Positions 14,819-22,378 of a DNA stretch of 45,547 bases are shown piece after piece. Position numbers and translations under genes: made by a program. Origin of the DNA: an uncultured Lachnospiraceae bacterium (GTDB taxonomy: Bacteria > Bacillota > Clostridia > Lachnospirales > Lachnospiraceae); NCBI GenBank assembly GCA_902781895.1, contig CACZLA010000032.1:1-45547 (forward strand). The letters run 5' to 3'. The notes under the pieces were generated by a model. The model ran no database searches, was not told where the DNA came from, and worked only from the letters and a program-made list of their open reading frames with translations. Within the stretch, counting starts at the first letter, position 1. Every line of letters starts with the position of its first letter.

Positions 14819-15928
14819 ATGAATAAAAACGATGATATTTCCAAGGCTGTTATAGGGGTTGCCGGTGACATCATACCCCATGTCTCGCTTCTGAACAGAC
14901 ATAGAGATGGAGATAGTTTTGATTTTTCTTACGTTTTTTCGTCTATATCTGAATATTATAAGCAGGCCGATCTGATGTTTGTAAATCTTGAGTTCGCTCT
15001 TGGCGGTCCAGAGTCGGGTGCGTATAGGGGATATCCTTTATTCAACGGTCCGGATGAAATTGTCCTTGCAATGAAGGATGCCGGTGTTAATGGATGTCTC
15101 ATGGCAAACAATCATACAAATGATATGGGTTATTACGGAATGATGAGAACAATGGACGTACTTGATAAGTGTGGGATGGTTCAGCTTGGTACCCGGAGAG
15201 ATGAAAACGAGTCCTTTGTATTTATCAGAGAAATAAACGGCATTCGTTTCGGCATGGTATGTTATACCTATGACACCCGTGAATATAATGACGGAAAGAT
15301 ATCATTAAACTGTGTTGAGCTGAGTGATGAAGCAAAGAATAAAGTTGCGGTTTATAATTATGATTTGCTGGATGAGTTCTATGAAAAGCTGGAGGCTGAT
15401 CTTGAATACATGAATAGTGAAAGTGTTGATGTAAAGATCATTTTCATTCACTGGGGAAATGAGTATGAAGACTATCCGTGTGAGATTCAGAAAAAAATAG
15501 CATGTCAGCTTTCGGAAATGGGTTTCGATGCCATACTTGGCGGACACCCCCATGTGGTTCAGAAGCTTGATATTCTGACAAATTCCAAGGGGCATAAAAC
15601 TATTTGTCTTTACTCAAGTGGAAATCACTTGTCAAACCAGCGTGCCCGACTGCTTTCTTCGGACAAGCATCGCGGATACACTGAAGACGGAGTATTGCTT
15701 CTGTTAACATTTACCAGATCAGCTGACGGAAAGGTTGAAGCAGGCGATATCCATCCTATACCCACGTGGGTAGAACTGGATGACGACGGCTATTGTATCA
15801 TACCACTTCCAAAAGAAGTTCCACCTTCGTCCTGGAAGGCAAATGATAAAGACGCCGCCATGGCTTCCTTTAACAGGACAATGGGGAGATTATATGGTAC
15901 AATTATTAATAATTGTCATTCTGAGTGA
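14819..15928 (+). CDS. CapA-like (PGA_cap) metallophosphatase-fold protein, second copy
   Basis: A 369-residue CapA/PgsA family protein with the metal-site pattern GVAGDIIPH, VNLEFALGG, ANNHTNDMGY, HWGNEYEDYP, GGHPHVVQ and YSSGNH. No signal peptide or membrane segment is visible, so like the copy at 4336 it is predicted cytosolic, but the two differ markedly in sequence. The family is linked to poly-gamma-glutamate synthesis, while soluble members are mostly uncharacterised phosphoesterase-like proteins. The last four codons (CHSE) and the stop lie inside a small interspersed repeat, so the C-terminus was probably replaced when the repeat inserted. RBS AAGGAG lies six bases before the ATG. 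Confidence 0.8.
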   Translation: MNKNDDISKAVIGVAGDIIPHVSLLNRHRDGDSFDFSYVFSSISEYYKQADLMFVNLEFALGGPESGAYRGYPLFNGPDEIVLAMKDAGVNGCLMANNHTNDMGYYGMMRTMDVLDKCGMVQLGTRRDENESFVFIREINGIRFGMVCYTYDTREYNDGKISLNCVELSDEAKNKVAVYNYDLLDEFYEKLEADLEYMNSESVDVKIIFIHWGNEYEDYPCEIQKKIACQLSEMGFDAILGGHPHVVQKLDILTNSKGHKTICLYSSGNHLSNQRARLLSSDKHRGYTEDGVLLLLTFTRSADGKVEAGDIHPIPTWVELDDDGYCIIPLPKEVPPSSWKANDKDAAMASFNRTMGRLYGTIINNCHSE

Positions 15929-15951
15929 AGCGAATCAGCTCAAGAATCTTA
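15913..15951. repeat. Small interspersed repeat, TTGTCATTCTGAG...AAGAATCTTA type
   Basis: Second copy of the repeat at 9113, with identical 13-base left arm and 10-base right arm but a different centre. The left arm supplies the last codons and stop of the upstream CapA-like gene; the right arm ends just before the GAGGAG of the next gene. Confidence 0.6.
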
Positions 15952-15972
15952 AAAAATAGAGGAGAACATTGT

Positions 15973-16959
15973 ATGTCAGAAAAAAGGATTATTTTTAATA
16001 AGAAATATCTTGCAAAGGTTTTTTCATTATCATTACTGTTAATGATATTTGTCACCGGCTGTGGCAGGAAAGCGGATGAAACATCGGATAGAGACAAAAA
16101 AACAACAGAGGCAGTAACTGAGGCTACTACCGGGGAAAATGCAGATGCCGGGGCAGACAGGGTTGATGAGGATTCCAAAATGAACAGCAGTTCTACGGCA
16201 AAAACAGCAAGTGATAAATCCTTTGAACTTGTAGCCGGAAAAACCTTCAAGGTTGTGGGAAGTGTGTTTGCGCTTGAATGGAGCGACGAATTAACAATAA
16301 ATGATGATGGTTCATTTGATGGATATACAGTAAGTGGGGGGGAAACTGAATCCTCTATGAATTATTCGGGAAAGTTTGGACCGCTTGATACAGATAATGA
16401 AGATCTTATATACTCGGCAAAGGTAGAATCCGGGGCGGCTTATTTTGAAAAGGACGGAGAAATAACATTTTATGATAAAGGCTTCCCTATAAATATGCTG
16501 CCGGAAGATGTAAAGCATTATCTTAAGAGTGGCCTGTATGCATCAATACTTGATCTTCATAATCTTCCATGCATGATTTTCTGGAATCATGATGACAGAT
16601 CAGTTTACGCTGATGCATCATATACACCACCGAAAAAATCAGTAACGGAGGCAGCTACCGAAGCAGTAACAGAGGCTGCTGAGGAACCACCAACAAGTTC
16701 CATGAATTCTCCATTTTACGGCGTGTGGGTTTACGGGGCAAAGGATAAAGCCGACGCAGACAACTTTGCGGCAAATGTAAGCGGCATGACTGCACTTGTA
16801 TTCCTAACAACAGACTGGTCAAACCTCAACTCTGAACCATATTACGTAGTATCACTTGGAATGTATACAAATGAATCAGATGCAAACGGTGCTTTGGAAA
16901 CAGCAAAGGGACTTGGCTACACCGATGCATATGTAAAATACTCAGGAGATCACAGGTAA
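15973..16959 (+). CDS. Lipoprotein with Thr/Glu-rich linkers and SPOR-like C-terminus
   Basis: A 328-residue secreted lipoprotein of unknown function. The signal peptide (positive residues to about 16, hydrophobic stretch 17-30) ends in a VTGC lipobox, so the Cys would be lipidated and anchored outside the membrane. A low-complexity Thr/Glu/Ala linker follows, then a compact domain (roughly 80-215) of no family I recognise, a second TEAATEAVTEAA linker near 225, and a C-terminal stretch of about 75 residues. The YYVVSLGMYTNESDA and GLGYTDAYVKYSG segments there resemble a SPOR peptidoglycan-binding domain; that is a weak visual match. I start it at ATG 15973 behind AGAGGAGA; an upstream in-frame start at 15925 overlaps the repeat and has no site. 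The stop is followed immediately by a RAYT-associated element. Confidence 0.75.
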   Translation: MSEKRIIFNKKYLAKVFSLSLLLMIFVTGCGRKADETSDRDKKTTEAVTEATTGENADAGADRVDEDSKMNSSSTAKTASDKSFELVAGKTFKVVGSVFALEWSDELTINDDGSFDGYTVSGGETESSMNYSGKFGPLDTDNEDLIYSAKVESGAAYFEKDGEITFYDKGFPINMLPEDVKHYLKSGLYASILDLHNLPCMIFWNHDDRSVYADASYTPPKKSVTEAATEAVTEAAEEPPTSSMNSPFYGVWVYGAKDKADADNFAANVSGMTALVFLTTDWSNLNSEPYYVVSLGMYTNESDANGALETAKGLGYTDAYVKYSGDHR

Positions 16960-16966
16960 AAGATTC

Positions 16967-17047
16967 AATGTGCCATATGGGGACGGTTCTTCTATGTAAC
17001 GTAGAACTGTCCCTTTTGTAACATAGATGTGTCCCCAATGGCACATT
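16967..17047 (+). repeat. RAYT-associated modular element A (2 units)
   Basis: Head TGTGCCATATGGGGAC plus GGTTCTTCTAT, two 22-bp units (16996-17017 and 17018-17039), then tail TGGCACATTTTTT. Head and tail ends are inverted (TGTGCCAT and ATGGCACA). The unit core reads GTAACRTAGAWNTGTCCC. It lies immediately left of the RAYT gene. Head positions 16972-17000 are an exact reverse complement of 18017-18045 on the other side of that gene. Confidence 0.85.
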
Positions 17048-17157
17048 TTTTGAATGTTACGTGAAATAGGTGCTTTTTGATTAATTATGTGATACGATTT
17101 ATTAGATTAAATTTTTCTTTTTCCTTTCCCACGCTTAAGGATACAGGAAGGAGGAAC

Positions 17158-17901
17158 ATGCCAAGAATCGGAAGAGTAATTGACACAAAGGGGTACGTTC
17201 ATTTAATTGAAAGAGGAATAAGTCAACAGATAATTTTTGAGGATGAGCAGGACTACCAGTATTACCTGAAACTACTCAGAAAATACTCGGATGAATTGGA
17301 TATTAAGATAAATGCTTATTGTCTGATGGATAATCACGTTCATTTGCTGGTTTATTATGAGGACAAATCGGTTTCGTTGTTCATGAAGAAAATTGGGATT
17401 TCATATTCCAATTATTATAATAAGAAATATTCTCGAACCGGACATTTGTTTCAGGATAGATTCAAGTCTGAACAGGTTTTCAATGATCGTTATTATTTGA
17501 CGGTTTTGAGGTATATACTGAATAATCCCGTGAAAGCGGGTATAAGCAGTATTAGTGAGTATCGCTGGAGTAGTTATCATCTTAGTCAAAAGCAAAATGA
17601 GTTTGTTGACGCTTCACTTGCCATTCAGTTGTGCGGAGGTTTTGAGAAGTATTATCATTTTCTTGAGTCTGTTAATGATGATGAATGCATGGAGTACAAT
17701 TCGAGACCGCATGATGATACGTGGGCCAGAAATGTAATGCTAAGTACATTGGAAATAAGTAGTGGTAATGATCTCAAACTTTACGATAAGATCGCACGTG
17801 ATTCGGCACTTAGAAAATTGAATGAATGTGGACTATCCTATAATCAGATAAGTCGACTTACCGGATTAGGAAAAAGTATAGTCCAACGTGCATGTCAATG
17901 A
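17158..17901 (+). CDS. REP-associated tyrosine transposase (RAYT, Y1 HUH family)
   Basis: A 247-residue Y1 transposase-type protein (IS200/REP family) that should nick and rejoin single-stranded DNA at hairpins. The HUH motif is DNHVHLLV with His60 and His62. Candidate catalytic tyrosines cluster at SYSNYYNKKY (83-91), followed by GHLFQDRFKS and RYILNNPVKAG, all typical of PF01797 RAYTs. The C-terminal 35 residues (LSYNQISRLTGLGKSIVQR) look like a helix-turn-helix, an extension shared by one RAYT subgroup. I start it at ATG 17158 after AGGAAGGAGG; the 27 residues upstream of it do not fit the family. The gene is bracketed by inverted repeat elements, with more copies nearby, as expected for a RAYT and its REP targets. 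RAYTs are usually single-copy and domesticated. Confidence 0.92.
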   Translation: MPRIGRVIDTKGYVHLIERGISQQIIFEDEQDYQYYLKLLRKYSDELDIKINAYCLMDNHVHLLVYYEDKSVSLFMKKIGISYSNYYNKKYSRTGHLFQDRFKSEQVFNDRYYLTVLRYILNNPVKAGISSISEYRWSSYHLSQKQNEFVDASLAIQLCGGFEKYYHFLESVNDDECMEYNSRPHDDTWARNVMLSTLEISSGNDLKLYDKIARDSALRKLNECGLSYNQISRLTGLGKSIVQRACQ

Positions 17902-17907
17902 AGTGGT

Positions 17908-17956
17908 ATTAGCGCTAGCTGTAATGGTTTACAGTATAGCGCTAATTTCATTTTTT
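17908..17956 (+). terminator. Intrinsic terminator of the RAYT gene
   Basis: ATTAGCGCTA pairs with TAGCGCTAAT (10 bp) and an inner CTGTAA/TTACAG stem caps it with a four-base loop; a T-rich tract (TTCATTTTTT) follows. Confidence 0.8.
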
Positions 17957-18014
17957 GTGAAAAATATGAGTGGTATCGATTTGTGGAGTACGGGTTGTAT
18001 ATATGAGAGGCAAA

Positions 18015-18046
18015 ATGTTACATAGAAGAACCGTCCCCATATGGCT
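18015..18046 (-). repeat. RAYT-associated element B (head only, reversed)
   Basis: Only the head of the element is present, in opposite orientation to element A: 18017-18045 is an exact 29-base reverse complement of 16972-17000. No 22-bp unit or tail follows. With element A it forms perfect inverted ends around the RAYT gene. Confidence 0.85.
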
Positions 18047-18063
18047 CAATCCCATCGCGACAC

Positions 18064-18092
18064 TTCACAAATCATTATTTTAGTGGTAAAAT
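18064..18092 (+). promoter_or_regulatory. Promoter of the O-acetylhomoserine sulfhydrylase gene
   Basis: TTCACA at 18064-18069, 17 bp, TAAAAT at 18087-18092 with an extended -10 TGG just upstream. ACACTTC (overlapping the -35) and GAAGTGT downstream form a 7-bp inverted repeat that could be an operator. I see no SAM riboswitch or T-box in the short leader. Confidence 0.55.
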
Positions 18093-18150
18093 ATCGAAGT
18101 GTATTTATATTACGAACTAAAGAAATAATTATCAGGAGGATACAATAAAA

Positions 18151-19416
18151 ATGAAAGATGAAACAAAATGTTTGCACTCGGGTTACACACCCGGAAATAC
18201 TGAGCCGAGAGTAGTACCAATCGTACAGAGTACGACCTACAGATTCGATACAACACAGGACATTGCTGATGTATTCGATGACCCTACAAAGGCTCTTATT
18301 TATTCGAGATTTGCAAACCCGACTGTTATGGCGGTTGAAGAGAAAATCAATCAGCTCGAGGGTGGTGTGGGAGCAATGGCTACATCATCAGGTCAGGCTG
18401 CATCACTTCTTTCAATTCTTAATATCGCACAGGCAGGCGACAGCTTTGTTTCTGTTTCTGAGATATACGGTGGAACAATCAATCTTTTCGCTTACACATT
18501 GAAGAAGCTGGGCATCGAGTGTATCTTCGTAAATCAGGAAATGTCTGACGAGGAGATCAAGGCAGCCTTCAAGCCAAACACAAAATGTGTATTCGGTGAG
18601 ACACTTGCCAATCCATCACTTACAGTATTTGATATAGAGAGATTTGCAAATATCGCACATGAGAAGGGAGTACCTCTCATCGTCGACAATACCTTTGCAA
18701 CACCGATATTATGTAAACCATTTGACTTTGGTGCGGATATCGTTGTTCATTCAACAACAAAGTACATGGACGGACACGCAGTACAGGGCGGCGGTATGAT
18801 CGTCGACAGCGGTAAGTTCGACTGGACAAATGGAAACTTCCCGGAACTTGTTGAACCGGATGAGAGCTACCACGGAACACGCTATGTTGCTGATTACGGA
18901 AAAATGGCATACATCCTTAAGGCTCGTATGCAGCTGATGAGAGACTTCGGATGCTATCCGGCAGCACATTCGGCATTCCTTCTCAACCTGGGACTTGAGA
19001 CACTTCCGATCCGTATGGAGAGACATTACCAGAATGCTCTTGAGGTAGCTAAGTTCCTGAAGCAGAGTGAGTATGTTGAGTCAGTTACCTTCCCTGCACT
19101 CGAGGACGACAAGAACCATGAACTTGCAAAGAAATATCTCGGCGGAAAGGCATGCGGTGTTATCTCATTTGTTATCAAGGGCGGAAGAGAGAAAGCCATG
19201 AAGTTCATGGACAGCCTGAAGCTTGCATCAAATGAAGTTCATGTAGCAGATATCAGAACATGCGTACTTCATCCTGCAAGTGAGACCCATCGTCAGCTTA
19301 CAGACGAGCAGCTGGTTGCAGCAGGCATAGAGGGCGGTATGATCAGATTCTCAGTAGGACTTGAGAATATCGAAGATATCATAGCAGATATCAAAACAGG
19401 TTTTGCAGCGATGTAG
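18151..19416 (+). CDS. O-acetylhomoserine sulfhydrylase (PLP-dependent, Cys/Met metabolism)
   Basis: A 421-residue enzyme of the cystathionine gamma-synthase/PLP family, predicted to make homocysteine from O-acetyl-L-homoserine and sulfide. Visible features: SRFANPTVMAVEEKIN near 52-66, the SSGQAA phosphate-binding loop at 79-84, VDNTFATP (PLP Asp) near 178-185, and STTKYMDGHA with the PLP-binding Lys204. The length and the C-terminal HPASETHRQLTDEQ stretch favour the MetY-type enzyme over cystathionine gamma-synthase, but gamma-lyase activity cannot be excluded by eye. AGGAGGA lies 11-12 bases before the ATG. The gene has its own promoter and terminator and is a solitary unit between RAYT elements. 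Confidence 0.87.
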   Translation: MKDETKCLHSGYTPGNTEPRVVPIVQSTTYRFDTTQDIADVFDDPTKALIYSRFANPTVMAVEEKINQLEGGVGAMATSSGQAASLLSILNIAQAGDSFVSVSEIYGGTINLFAYTLKKLGIECIFVNQEMSDEEIKAAFKPNTKCVFGETLANPSLTVFDIERFANIAHEKGVPLIVDNTFATPILCKPFDFGADIVVHSTTKYMDGHAVQGGGMIVDSGKFDWTNGNFPELVEPDESYHGTRYVADYGKMAYILKARMQLMRDFGCYPAAHSAFLLNLGLETLPIRMERHYQNALEVAKFLKQSEYVESVTFPALEDDKNHELAKKYLGGKACGVISFVIKGGREKAMKFMDSLKLASNEVHVADIRTCVLHPASETHRQLTDEQLVAAGIEGGMIRFSVGLENIEDIIADIKTGFAAM

Positions 19417-19423
19417 TTTATCA

Positions 19424-19454
19424 GGGCGCCTTCGCTTACGCGACAGGCGCCTTT
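19424..19454 (+). terminator. Intrinsic terminator after the sulfhydrylase gene
   Basis: GGCGCCT and AGGCGCC form a GC-rich 7-bp stem with an internal TCGC/GCGA pairing in the loop; only three T follow. Confidence 0.6.
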
Positions 19455-19468
19455 CATAAATGTTGCAA

Positions 19469-19618
19469 ATGTTCCATATGGGGACGGTTCTTCTATGTAA
19501 CGTAGAAGTGTTCCCAGTGTAACATAGAAGCGTCCCCAAAGTAACATAGAAGCGTCCCCAAAGTAACATAGAAGCGTCCCCAAAGTAACGTAGAAGTGTC
19601 CCCTAATGGCACATTTTT
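19469..19618 (+). repeat. RAYT-associated modular element C (5 units)
   Basis: Same head as element A (TGTTCCATATGGGGAC then GGTTCTTCTAT), five contiguous 22-bp units at 19497-19518, 19519-19540, 19541-19562, 19563-19584 and 19585-19606, then tail TGGCACATTTTT. The three central units are identical (core GTAACATAGAAGCGTCCCC plus AAA); the outer two are diverged, as in arrays that grow and shrink internally. Confidence 0.9.
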
Positions 19619-19682
19619 GTGACGAGTTCATTAGAAATTGTTTTCCGTAGCCGTATAAGACTTAAGAAGGTGGAATATTGAT

Positions 19683-20435
19683 ATGGATAAAAAGAACATG
19701 ATCATAATTGCATCAGCGATAGTCTTATTAGTGATACTTATCGGGTTGTTTGTGGTGTTAATTAAAGAGGATGAATCAATAACTGAGGGGACAGCAAAGA
19801 CGGATGATCAGATATCAACGGTGGCTGTTGTGACGACGGAAGCGACGATGGATAATAAGACAGAATCCGAGACAGTGATCACAACGGAAGCATCAACTGA
19901 CGAAACTATGGATGAGACTTCTGAGGAGAATCCCGAAGAGACTTCTGAAATGGAAACAACCACCCAGTCTTCCAAGAAGAACAAGAAATCAAAGAAGTCT
20001 AAAAAGAACAATAATAACAAACCAGACAATAACAAACCAGACAATAACAAACCAGACAATAACAAGCCAGACCAAAACAACTCAGACAACAACAAACAGG
20101 ACAACTACCTGAATCCAAGTGACGGTTACGATACTGAAAACTCGACAGGACTCACAAACCCTGATCATGAGTATACGTTCAGGAACAACAAAAAGCTTGA
20201 AGACCATTACGAAAAGCATGGGAAAGAGATGGGCTTTAAGGATGCCGGGGCTTACGAAGAGGCAGCGTCAAATGTAGTTAACAACCCTAACGCGCTTCAC
20301 AAGATAGAAAAAGAAGACGGTGATGATGTTTATTACATCGAATCAACAAATGAATTTGTTATCGTTTCCACTGACGGATATATAAGAACCTATTTCAATC
20401 CCAGTGGTGGAATTGATTACTATAACAGACAGTAA
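19683..20435 (+). CDS. Membrane-anchored surface protein with toxin-like C-terminal domain
   Basis: A 250-residue protein. Residues 5-27 form an uncleaved signal anchor (IIIASAIVLLVILIGLFVV), placing the rest outside. A Thr/Glu-rich stalk (40-95), a Lys/Asn block and four NKPDN repeats encoded by a 15-bp DNA repeat (about 20020-20085) follow. The C-terminal 95 residues form a distinct domain: EYTFRNNKKLEDHYEKHG, GAYEEAASNVVNNP, DDVYYIES, VSTDGYIRTYFNP and a final YYNRQ. From memory this resembles small nuclease-type toxin domains (BECR fold) at the ends of polymorphic toxins; that match is unverified. There is no obvious immunity gene next to it. A weak TATAAG -10 lies upstream, and the stop abuts a RAYT element. 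Confidence 0.7.
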   Translation: MDKKNMIIIASAIVLLVILIGLFVVLIKEDESITEGTAKTDDQISTVAVVTTEATMDNKTESETVITTEASTDETMDETSEENPEETSEMETTTQSSKKNKKSKKSKKNNNNKPDNNKPDNNKPDNNKPDQNNSDNNKQDNYLNPSDGYDTENSTGLTNPDHEYTFRNNKKLEDHYEKHGKEMGFKDAGAYEEAASNVVNNPNALHKIEKEDGDDVYYIESTNEFVIVSTDGYIRTYFNPSGGIDYYNRQ

Positions 20436-20559
20436 ATGTTCTAAAAGGGACAATTCTGTGCTACAGAAGGGACAATTCTGTGCAACAGAAGGGACATATC
20501 TAAGCTACAGAAGGGACAGATATACGTTACATAGAAGAACCGTCCCCATTTGGAACATG
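20435..20559 (-). repeat. RAYT-associated modular element D (4 diverged units, reversed)
   Basis: Read on the minus strand: head ATGTTCCAAATGGGGAC plus GGTTCTTCTAT, four 22-bp units (20509-20530, 20487-20508, 20465-20486, 20443-20464) with core GTAGCACAGAATTGTCCC, then an ATGTTCT-type end. The units are clearly homologous to those in A and C but more diverged, so this is an older copy. It begins at the stop codon of the upstream gene. Confidence 0.85.
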
Positions 20560-20605
20560 GCCCTGGAACATTTAGACCCATAAAATAAAAACAAGGAGTA
20601 ACATC

Positions 20606-22378
20606 ATGGACATTATCAAGAAGATTAGTGAAGAATTAGAGGTGAAAAAGGAACAGGTGCAGGCAGCGGTAGATCTGCTGGACGAAGGCTGTACAGTTCC
20701 ATTTATCGCCCGATACAGAAAAGAGAAGACAGGCGCTCTCAACGATGAGCAGCTGAGAAAGCTTCATGAGAGACTGACTTATCTCAGGAATCTGGAAGAA
20801 AAGAAGCAGACGGTCATCTCCACTATAGAAGAGCAGGAGAAAATGACTCCCGAGCTTATGAAGGAGATAGAAGCTGCCGAGACCATGGTGGCACTCGAGG
20901 ATATTTACAGACCATATAAACCAAAAAGAAGAACCAGAGCAACCATTGCCAAGGAAGCAGGTCTTGAGCCTCTTGCTGAGATCATCATGAAGCAGGAAAC
21001 TTCAAAGACCATGGAAGAAGAGGCGAGTGCATTTATCGACAGCGAAAAAGGTATCGACAGTGTAGATGCTGCCATCAGCGGCGCTTCAGACATTATAGCC
21101 GAGCAGATAAGTGATACAGCTGACTACAGAACCTGGATCAGAGAGAAGACCTTCAAGACAGGAAACATCAAGTCAGTTGCAAAGAACGAGGAAGAAAAGT
21201 CGGTTTACGAGACATACTATGATTTCGAGGAAGCTATCTCGAAAATCACCGGTTACCGTGTTCTTGCCATAAACCGTGGTGAGAAGGAGAAGTTCCTGAC
21301 CATCAAGATTGAAGCTCCTGTTTTTGAGATAACAAACTATCTGGAGAAGCAGCTGATAGCTCCAAAGTACCTTCCCGGAGGTGCAGTATCAGACGATAAA
21401 ACCGATAAGAAAAATGGAACCGACAAAAATAAGGCTGTCGACAAGAACCGTTCCAAGAGCAGTCTCAACAGAAGCGGTATTAATGGTCTGGATGAAATAG
21501 CACTCCTGCTTGAAACACCGAAGAAGGAGAAAAGAAATAATCGTCGGAACGAGAGCGGTGCAAATGCAAAGGCCTCTCAGGGACCTGTGGCAACAGAATA
21601 TCTGATCGATGCAGGAAAGCCGGGAGAAACGGATGTTCCATGGACAGTCCAGGTTATCGTAAATGCTATCATGGATTCCTATGACAGACTTATCCAGCCT
21701 GCCATAGAAAGAGATATCAGAAATGAGCTTACGGAAAAGGCAGAGGACGGCGCTATAGAGGTATTCGGAAAGAACCTTACACAGCTTCTCATGCAGCCGC
21801 CTATCGCAGGCCAGACAGTACTGGGCTGGGACCCGGCCTTCAGAACAGGATGTAAGCTGGCAGTTGTAGATCCAACCGGAAAAGTACTGGACACAACAGT
21901 CATCTATCCCACAGCTCCTACAACCGACGAAAAGATAGCAAAGGCCAAAGCAACACTTAAGAAGCTGATCAAGAAATATAACATTACACTTATTTCCTGT
22001 GGAAATGGAACCGCCTCCCGTGAGTCTGAACAGATCATAGTCGAGCTGTTACACGAAATACCGGAAGATGTAAGCTATGTCATCACAAACGAAGCAGGAG
22101 CATCCGTATACAGCGCAAGTGCACTGGCAACAGAAGAATTCCCTGAGTTCGATGTGGGACAGCGTTCTGCAACATCTATAGCAAGACGTGTCCAGGATCC
22201 ACTTGCAGAGCTGGTAAAGATAGATCCGAAGTCCATCGGAGTCGGTCAGTATCAGCATGATATGAATCAGAAAAAACTCGGTGAGGCTTTAGGAGGAGTA
22301 GTAGAAGCTGCGGTTAACAAGGTAGGAGTTGATCTGAATACAGCATCAGCACCGCTTCTTCAACATAGTTACATATAG
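20606..22378 (+). CDS. tex: Tex-family transcription/RNA-binding protein, N-terminal part of a broken gene
   Basis: Tex is a conserved nucleic-acid-binding factor of about 700-780 residues: an N-terminal helical region, a YqgF-like RNase H fold, helix-hairpin-helix motifs and a C-terminal S1 domain. The first 585 residues match: CTVPFIARYRKEKTGAL at about 29-45, LEDIYRPYKPKRRTRA near 97-112, GWDPAFRTGCKLAVVD for the YqgF-like domain, and VGQYQHDMNQ and NTASAPLL leading into the HhH. Then the frame breaks at about 22360: after PLL it reads QHSYI and stops, whereas the +1 frame resumes with NIVTYREENGSF. About 35 bp encoding the first HhH helix appear deleted. An 80-residue Lys/Asn/Ser-rich insertion (about 260-340) is also unusual for Tex. 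Confidence 0.85.
   Translation: MDIIKKISEELEVKKEQVQAAVDLLDEGCTVPFIARYRKEKTGALNDEQLRKLHERLTYLRNLEEKKQTVISTIEEQEKMTPELMKEIEAAETMVALEDIYRPYKPKRRTRATIAKEAGLEPLAEIIMKQETSKTMEEEASAFIDSEKGIDSVDAAISGASDIIAEQISDTADYRTWIREKTFKTGNIKSVAKNEEEKSVYETYYDFEEAISKITGYRVLAINRGEKEKFLTIKIEAPVFEITNYLEKQLIAPKYLPGGAVSDDKTDKKNGTDKNKAVDKNRSKSSLNRSGINGLDEIALLLETPKKEKRNNRRNESGANAKASQGPVATEYLIDAGKPGETDVPWTVQVIVNAIMDSYDRLIQPAIERDIRNELTEKAEDGAIEVFGKNLTQLLMQPPIAGQTVLGWDPAFRTGCKLAVVDPTGKVLDTTVIYPTAPTTDEKIAKAKATLKKLIKKYNITLISCGNGTASRESEQIIVELLHEIPEDVSYVITNEAGASVYSASALATEEFPEFDVGQRSATSIARRVQDPLAELVKIDPKSIGVGQYQHDMNQKKLGEALGGVVEAAVNKVGVDLNTASAPLLQHSYI

Follow-up and report, generated by a model that had tools for sequence, protein, structure and literature searches.

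Hairpin and tandem-unit elements as probable ends of a RAYT transposon in an uncultured Lachnospiraceae bacterium

The closest described relatives of the elements reported here are those named TIRYT and TIRtron, in which Y1 genes are flanked by inverted repeats; excerpts of the original account give many of these repeats, not all, a GGGG[AT][CG]A[CG] core (Di Nocera et al. 2013, PMC3733652). RAYT subclass 2.1 probably corresponds to the TIRYT proteins of that study, and the neighbourhood of subclass 2.1 genes yielded no REP-like sequences, according to excerpts of PMC6006769. A second precedent, one of architecture, is BOX of Streptococcus pneumoniae (boxA-boxBn-boxC), whose module number varies between strains as reported in excerpts of PMC3049150.

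The window, the whole stretch of 45,547 nucleotides that was analysed, is contig 32 of the genome of an uncultured Lachnospiraceae bacterium (G000; 2.35 Mb in 87 contigs). It holds a Y1/HUH transposase gene and four copies, A to D, of a modular repeat. We consider it likely that each such element forms one end of a small transposon, in place or dispersed as a solo end, whose HUH Y1 transposase fits RAYT subclass 2.1 (TIRYT), and that it is composed of a hairpin and phased half-sites.

The transposase gene and its flanking elements

The transposase gene lies at 17158-17901 on the forward strand, and its product matches PF01797 (E 1.7e-14) and, under the model's cut-off, the REP-associated NCBIfam model NF047646 (E 7e-18). 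The protein carries HVH and YILNNP motifs, and H60, H62, Y119 and P124 are invariant across 18 aligned rows (alignment A1). HTH_23 is found in 8 and HTH_28 in 4 of the 18 aligned relatives (E up to 0.1). At E 0.1 the window protein itself had no HTH match; its C-terminal extension aligns with the HTH-bearing relatives and is predicted to be helical. The predicted structure (mean pLDDT 76) has as its nearest fold 4er8 (E 2e-7), a REP-associated transposase (RAYT) bound to a REP hairpin. By its motifs, the alignment of its C-terminus with HTH-bearing relatives and the repeats that flank its gene, the window transposase fits RAYT subclass 2.1 (TIRYT).

Element C, at 19468-19618 on the forward strand, consists of one inverted head (ATGTTCCATATGGGGACGGTTCTTCTAT), five 22-bp units starting at 19497, 19519, 19541, 19563 and 19585, and a tail (ATGGCACAT). 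Element A (16968-17047, forward strand) has its head at 16968-16995, two units at 16996-17017 and 17018-17039, and a tail that ends at 17047. Element D, on the reverse strand at 20436-20558, begins with a head at 20531-20558, continues through four diverged units down to 20443 and closes with a tail to 20436, while element B (18017-18050, reverse strand) is a head only. A sequence-only reading of this DNA had proposed just such a modular architecture of head, units and tail, with unit counts of two, none, five and four for A to D, and parsing bears out both layout and counts. The three inner units of C are identical, as that reading noted, and the matching inverted ends it described on head and tail are seen in elements A (TGTGCCAT/ATGGCACA) and C (TGTTCCAT/ATGGCACA).

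A head pattern matches the window four times (16980 and 19481 on the forward strand, 18020 and 20529 on the reverse), against 0.01 expected from shuffles. A unit pattern matches seven times, again against 0.01, a count without the units of D, which are too diverged for the pattern. TRF reports a 22-bp array at 19497-19603 (4.9 copies, 91% matches) and a second 22-bp array at 20445-20518. Folding each element as single-stranded DNA, a check proposed along with the architecture, gave a divided answer: A, C and D beat their shuffles (z -6.8, -3.8 and -3.4), and B on its own has no stable fold (z +1.0). A CRISPR array was judged unlikely on anatomy alone.

The head of A and element B are 32-nt inverted repeats, 97% identical, on either side of the RAYT gene. 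Because inverted repeats surround a Y1 gene in this way, A and B look like the left and right ends of one small transposon, lopsided in that B is without an array; C and D look like solo ends of it. Reversed, unit 2 of A and unit 5 of C read GGGGACAC, which agrees with the GGGG[AT][CG]A[CG] core; the head, that is, the repeat common to A and B, reads GGGGACGG and is one position off that core, as are units 2-4 of C. The suggested connection between elements and RAYT is supported, and it appears closer than was suggested, with the elements resembling ends of the RAYT transposon itself.

Relatives within the genus were compared at this locus and genome-wide. A RAYT match at E 0.001 is present in 21 of 61 genus genomes, the closest after the window's own being only 57% identical. 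The exact head occurs in three of these genomes, the window's own, G064 (two exact, three near) and G016 (one exact, one near); four further genomes have a single two-mismatch head match each, which may be chance. For the RAYT itself, G064 gave a 35% partial match only and G016 no match in the genus search at E 0.001. The sequence-only reading had named the occurrence of elements in genomes lacking this RAYT as something that would refute it, and on its face G016 and G064 provide such a case; elements in G016, G064 and G314 (below), for which no close RAYT was found, are counted against the transposon-end model. In four congeners (G005, G012, G066 and G070) a RAYT lies within 3 kb of the O-acetylhomoserine sulfhydrylase gene that also neighbours it in the window, so presence of the RAYT looks ancestral and its absence looks like loss. 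For the incomplete assemblies G016 and G064, loss of the gene looks like the simpler reading.

In G064, the nearest relative found, the syntenic region joins the equivalents of window positions 16954 and 18151 with 124 bp between them, and no RAYT and none of A, B, C or D is present at this locus. The empty-site comparison with G064, G016 and G076 met intergenic flanks too diverged to fix the target site. Window positions 15560-16954 are 95.5% identical to positions 364-1756 of L103 in G064, and the next gene is 88% identical, a difference that suggests recent exchange of the upstream gene. A cargo cassette, in which C and D bracket gene 19683-20435 in the way that the RAYT is bracketed by A and B, was considered and rejected; the gene looks resident, since in G064 it adjoins the same next gene without C or D. 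Inside this 250-aa ORF, a 15-bp tandem repeat at 20013-20097 encodes repeated asparagine, lysine, proline and aspartate.

The element family in its own and other genomes

The genome-wide head search that the sequence-only reading had recommended returned 31 matches when up to 3 mismatches were allowed; 20 are exact, and a reversed-pattern control gave 2. Family rows were parsed from 24 of the 31; the seven left out are L025, the partner arm of L019, and six matches that all have 3 mismatches (L026-L030 and C69:593). Unit number proved variable, as had been claimed, ranging from zero to five per element: 13 rows have one unit, six have two, two have none, and three, four and five units occur once each. 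The one-unit rows include L019, although its "unit" is actually a head in inverted orientation. Three composites are each represented twice among the 24 rows. Nearly all of the own loci (20 of 21) are outside ORFs of at least 110 aa, with an overlap of up to 20 bp allowed; the remaining one overlaps an antisense ORF only, and many lie within about 65 bp downstream of a stop codon.

The composites are 152-bp, two-ended structures in which a left end with one unit, a short spacer and a right end with two units follow one another. Their three copies are identical pairwise at 147, 138 and 135 of 152 positions and have unalignable flanks (9-13 of 45 and 16-22 of 59 positions identical); the copies set the limits of the element near ATG.../...CAT. 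Judged by these alignments, three near-identical composites in unrelated surroundings show past mobility.

The same genome contains another, related family of repeats, with the head GGGACGGTTCTTCAGTGG (G000:C2:21878, C11:35996 and C69:593-655; L028, L029). Positions C69:605-655 are a tandem of CGTCCCCTTC-type units; one RAYT only was found in this genome. At L020 (G000:C69:296) the head stands about 110 bp from its likely unit, the gap is rich in other small palindromes, and the layout resembles an insertion of one repeat within a second.

Among 397 genomes of the family, a tandem pattern of three GTCCC at periods of 19-27 bp matched 39 genomes (about 169 matches), and its reversed control matched 50 (about 97 matches). 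The control stands as high in genome counts because coding repeats match too, and since matching genomes are no more numerous than control genomes (39 vs 50), genome counts alone are no evidence. The signal is in a few concentrated genomes, in the link to the RAYT and in the spacing. RAYT presence, defined by the A1 profile at E 1e-15 (111 matches in 82 of the 397 genomes), holds for 22 of the 39 tandem-pattern genomes vs 60 of the 358 others (Fisher p 2e-7, from a cross-table counted by hand). Among control-pattern genomes the link is absent (8 of 50, p 0.46). The most matches per genome are found in G314 (42), followed by G169 and G467 with 13 each. G314, a genome 82% complete in which no RAYT was found at E 1e-15, also contains repeated head-plus-three-unit elements.

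Inspection covered 27 of the 30 loci L111-L140, with L118, L120 and L129 outside. One or more inverted GGGAC heads with tandem GTCCC units were found at 12 of the 27, including the own-genome locus L122; L112 and L115 have several heads. Another eight resemble, by eye, coding or unrelated repeats (L111, L113, L116, L121, L126, L131, L138, L139), and in seven the motifs stand in tandem but a head of this kind is missing (L119, L124, L125, L132, L135, L137, L140). A frequent type at array loci is GGGAC with a GTCCC 26-28 bp on and further GTCCC every 21-22 bp. The longest array seen, L179 (G433:C80, 29489 onward), has nine GTCCC at exactly 21 bp and no GGGAC head within the cluster. At the level of the class, a stricter pattern (GGGACG, CGTCCC and one more GTCCC) was present in 4 of 245 genomes, the window's own among them, and its control in none; G639, from another family of the class, has 27 such matches. 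The layout recurs in other genera, and so extends further than the sequence-only reading knew.

A complementary survey began from the protein. From the 111 RAYT matches, 87 loci were picked on E-value and length, without regard to the flanking sequence, a sample that includes some partial or distant members and some congeners. Sufficient flanking sequence was available for 81 loci, of which 60 carry the GGGAC/GTCCC motif within 400 bp on each side, vs 30 of 81 for a control motif; the other 21 lack it on one or both sides. Same-direction spacings of up to 60 bp fall at 21-22 bp in 54 of 92 cases (36 at 21, 18 at 22), while a reversed-motif control yielded nine spacings, none of them at 21-22 bp. 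Tandem sites (20-23 bp) are present at one end or more in 19 of the 87 loci and at both ends in 14; the corresponding numbers are 26 and 20 for the head-unit hairpin spacing, and 15 and 11 for a head with at least two units. At the ends of the remaining 68 loci, tandem sites of 20-23 bp are absent, and RAYTs of this group can therefore do without the array.

The two ends are often mirror images in unit number, for instance in G169 and G375 (three on each side) and in G150 (four). Among the 11 loci with at least two units at both ends, counts are equal in six (L164, L199, L213, L217, L224, L232) and unequal in five; the count misses sites before the stop codon, and a wider reading equalises three of the five (G150 4/4, G389 3/3, G239 3/3). 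On a tree of 86 RAYT proteins, the tandem label is clustered, taking 11 changes vs a shuffled mean of 17.4, with none of 500 shuffles as low; it sits on both sides of the midpoint root and needs at least 9 forced changes. By these counts of changes the tree leaves a single origin of tandem ends unsupported, and gains are indistinguishable from losses. The nearest relatives of the window protein on the tree (G173, G157, G460) differ in spacing, their motifs lying 30-41 bp apart.

Head-unit pairing, unit number and the reading of the ends

The sequence-only reading held that the head can pair with any one of the units, giving alternative hairpins. This stands for C and is weak for D; as a general rule it finds no support, the partner across genomes being unit 1 and not unit 2. 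Units 2-4 of C pair equally with the head (-18.8 kcal/mol, DNA parameters), which makes alternative hairpins possible there; units 1 and 5 pair less well (-11.5 and -13.8). All four units of D pair poorly with its head (-7.6 to -9.8), and in A the last unit is the better partner (-14.2 vs -12.3). For 61 distinct multi-unit elements from several genomes, partly from loci selected for their arrays, the inner seven bases of the head are matched at 5.16 of 7 positions by unit 1, 3.11 by unit 2 and 3.26 by shuffled partners, with 0 of 5000 shuffles as high as unit 1. Restriction to one element per locus (n=36) gives 5.00, 3.22 and 3.02, again with 0 of 5000. By complementarity, the head is a partner of unit 1, not unit 2, across genomes. 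Matching of the outer arms in the window's own genome shows a modest excess as measured on 15 of the 24 rows (8.73 vs 7.94 shuffled, 58 of 5000). Between orthologues in G119 and G435 the head varies between GGGAC and GGGCC and its partner, in step, between GTCCC and GGCCC, at both ends; exchange between ends may make the two paired changes one event.

Gain and loss of units, also proposed earlier, is supported both by the likeness of units within an element and by three of ten orthologous arrays in other genera. Mean unit distance is 3.22 of 19 positions within elements vs 4.57 between them, and 17 of 20,000 permutations were as extreme (20 units from 7 elements, with L022 and L024 excluded as near copies of L021). 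The ten orthologous arrays come from four congener pairs, and unit number differs in three. Four arrays shared by G169 and G467 keep three units each at 82% identity, and the two of G119 and G435 are the same in number. In G099 and G423, whose arrays have no separate head, the right array has four vs five 21-bp units, one exact unit apart, and the left is the same apart from a 9-nt partial copy. G150 and G455 have four vs three units on both sides, with the head remodelled and only about 70% identity. A further pair, G157 and G460, has repeated whole hairpins with a 7-bp gap difference and was left out of the ten-array count.

The anatomy, the position of the terminal repeats, the dispersal, the pairing of head with unit 1, the 21-22 bp spacing and the change of unit number are established at the level of sequence. 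Under the transposon-end model, the outermost head (GGGAC) of a full end would pair with the nearest unit on its inner side to form a single-strand hairpin, recognised by the HUH domain. Inward of the hairpin would come zero to several more GTCCC half-sites in direct tandem at 21-22 bp, which is two helical turns and would set them on the same face of duplex DNA. Bound by the C-terminal HTH domain, these phased half-sites would load several transposases near the cleavage site, and slippage or unequal exchange in the tandem array would make the number of half-sites drift. As a broader and more tentative proposal, to which we give somewhat less than even credence, this HUH branch may read its ends doubly, as a folded hairpin and, through the HTH, as phased duplex half-sites whose number tunes the ends, while solo ends spread.

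Another account takes the extra units for a slippage by-product of hairpin ends, read by no protein, with only the head and unit 1 mattering. Base pairing is indeed kept only by head and unit 1, one genome contains elements with anything from no unit to five, the identical inner units of C are what slippage yields, 68 RAYT loci manage without an array, and five of 11 two-sided arrays have unequal counts. Yet the extra units retain GTCCC and the 21-22 bp spacing while the remainder diverges, six of those 11 loci are equal at both ends and three more become so on the wider reading, four arrays have held three units between G169 and G467, and the tandem label, with its nine or more changes, occurs to either side of the midpoint root in the RAYT tree. 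We regard this account as unlikely, though it is the strongest of the alternatives.

An RNA-level role in termination or mRNA stabilisation has been proposed for REPs, and the elements could likewise be retained between genes for what they do as RNA, forming 3'-end hairpins that stop transcription or protect the mRNA. Their placement outside ORFs and often within about 65 bp after a stop codon, the conserved head-unit pairing, and the folding of element C as RNA (z -3.6) are in keeping with such a role, as are three of the four terminator-like sites in 16800-20700, which fall in C or D (2.3 expected over the entire scanned interval). A terminator, however, requires neither direct tandem half-sites nor 21-22 bp phasing, the elements flank a transposase gene as inverted repeats with the core of such repeats, and Rfam covariance models found no match in 16500-21200 at E up to 1; we hold this role to be improbable. 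A promoter scan (17 sites vs 10.7 expected) was set aside. It is very improbable that the elements serve a host protein as a binding array and have nothing to do with transposition: phased direct repeats are typical of cooperative binding and REP/BIME elements bind host proteins, but array genomes are enriched for the RAYT, arrays are located at RAYT gene ends, and unit sequence outside GTCCC varies between genera, more like a transposase's site than that of a conserved host protein.

If the elements are transposon ends, a hairpin followed by phased tandem half-sites offers subclass 2.1 RAYTs a concrete, testable end structure, and the layout would account for repeats in many Lachnospiraceae genomes and, outside that family but within the class, in G639 at least. 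Unit number could set the transposition rate. Should the double reading also be true, solo ends would have spread as a modular repeat family.

Comparison with described systems

With the REP, BIME and REPIN sequences of GTAG-type RAYTs the elements share short palindromes dispersed between genes and a tie to a Y1 transposase, and the 152-bp composite resembles a REPIN-like pair. They differ in lacking a GTAG end tag, in their GGGAC core, and in units that run in the same direction instead of alternating. By eye, none of the 24 parsed rows has GTAG at the element ends; it is present inside some units of D and of the composites. The ends of Tn7 contain repeated 22-bp TnsB sites and resemble the present elements in that more than one transposase site is directly repeated within each end, whereas the Tn7 enzyme is a DDE transposase, an unrelated protein.

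The likeness to TIRtrons is closer, extending to a Y1 transposase flanked by inverted repeats and to the presence of the same repeats as dispersed families, some in dimers or clusters (excerpts of PMC3733652). TIRtron transposases have a C-terminal HTH and the repeats a GGGGWSAS-type core (PMC3733652, PMC6006769, in excerpts); here the C-terminus aligns with those of HTH-bearing relatives, and the core of the head is one position off. The excerpts of the TIRtron texts describe dimers, clusters and partly self-complementary TIRs, and mention no 21-22 bp tandem of half-sites or variable unit number. A literature search with narrow terms, confined to running text, likewise found nothing on phased tandem half-sites at RAYT ends. 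The sequence-only reading knew of no description of this architecture, a statement that calls for two provisos, TIR-flanked RAYTs being described in the excerpts of PMC3733652 and PMC6006769 and a layout of fixed ends with a variable middle being that of BOX (PMC3049150, in excerpts). Both of these were already known; the phased array may be new.

By architecture, the only basis on which the two were compared, BOX in the excerpts of PMC3049150 has fixed ends and variable tandem middle modules, as here. The link proposed for BOX is to ISSpn2, whereas the elements of this study are linked to a RAYT. Finally, boxB pairs little with boxA or boxC (excerpts of PMC3049150), while in the elements described here the first unit of the array is itself half of the hairpin.
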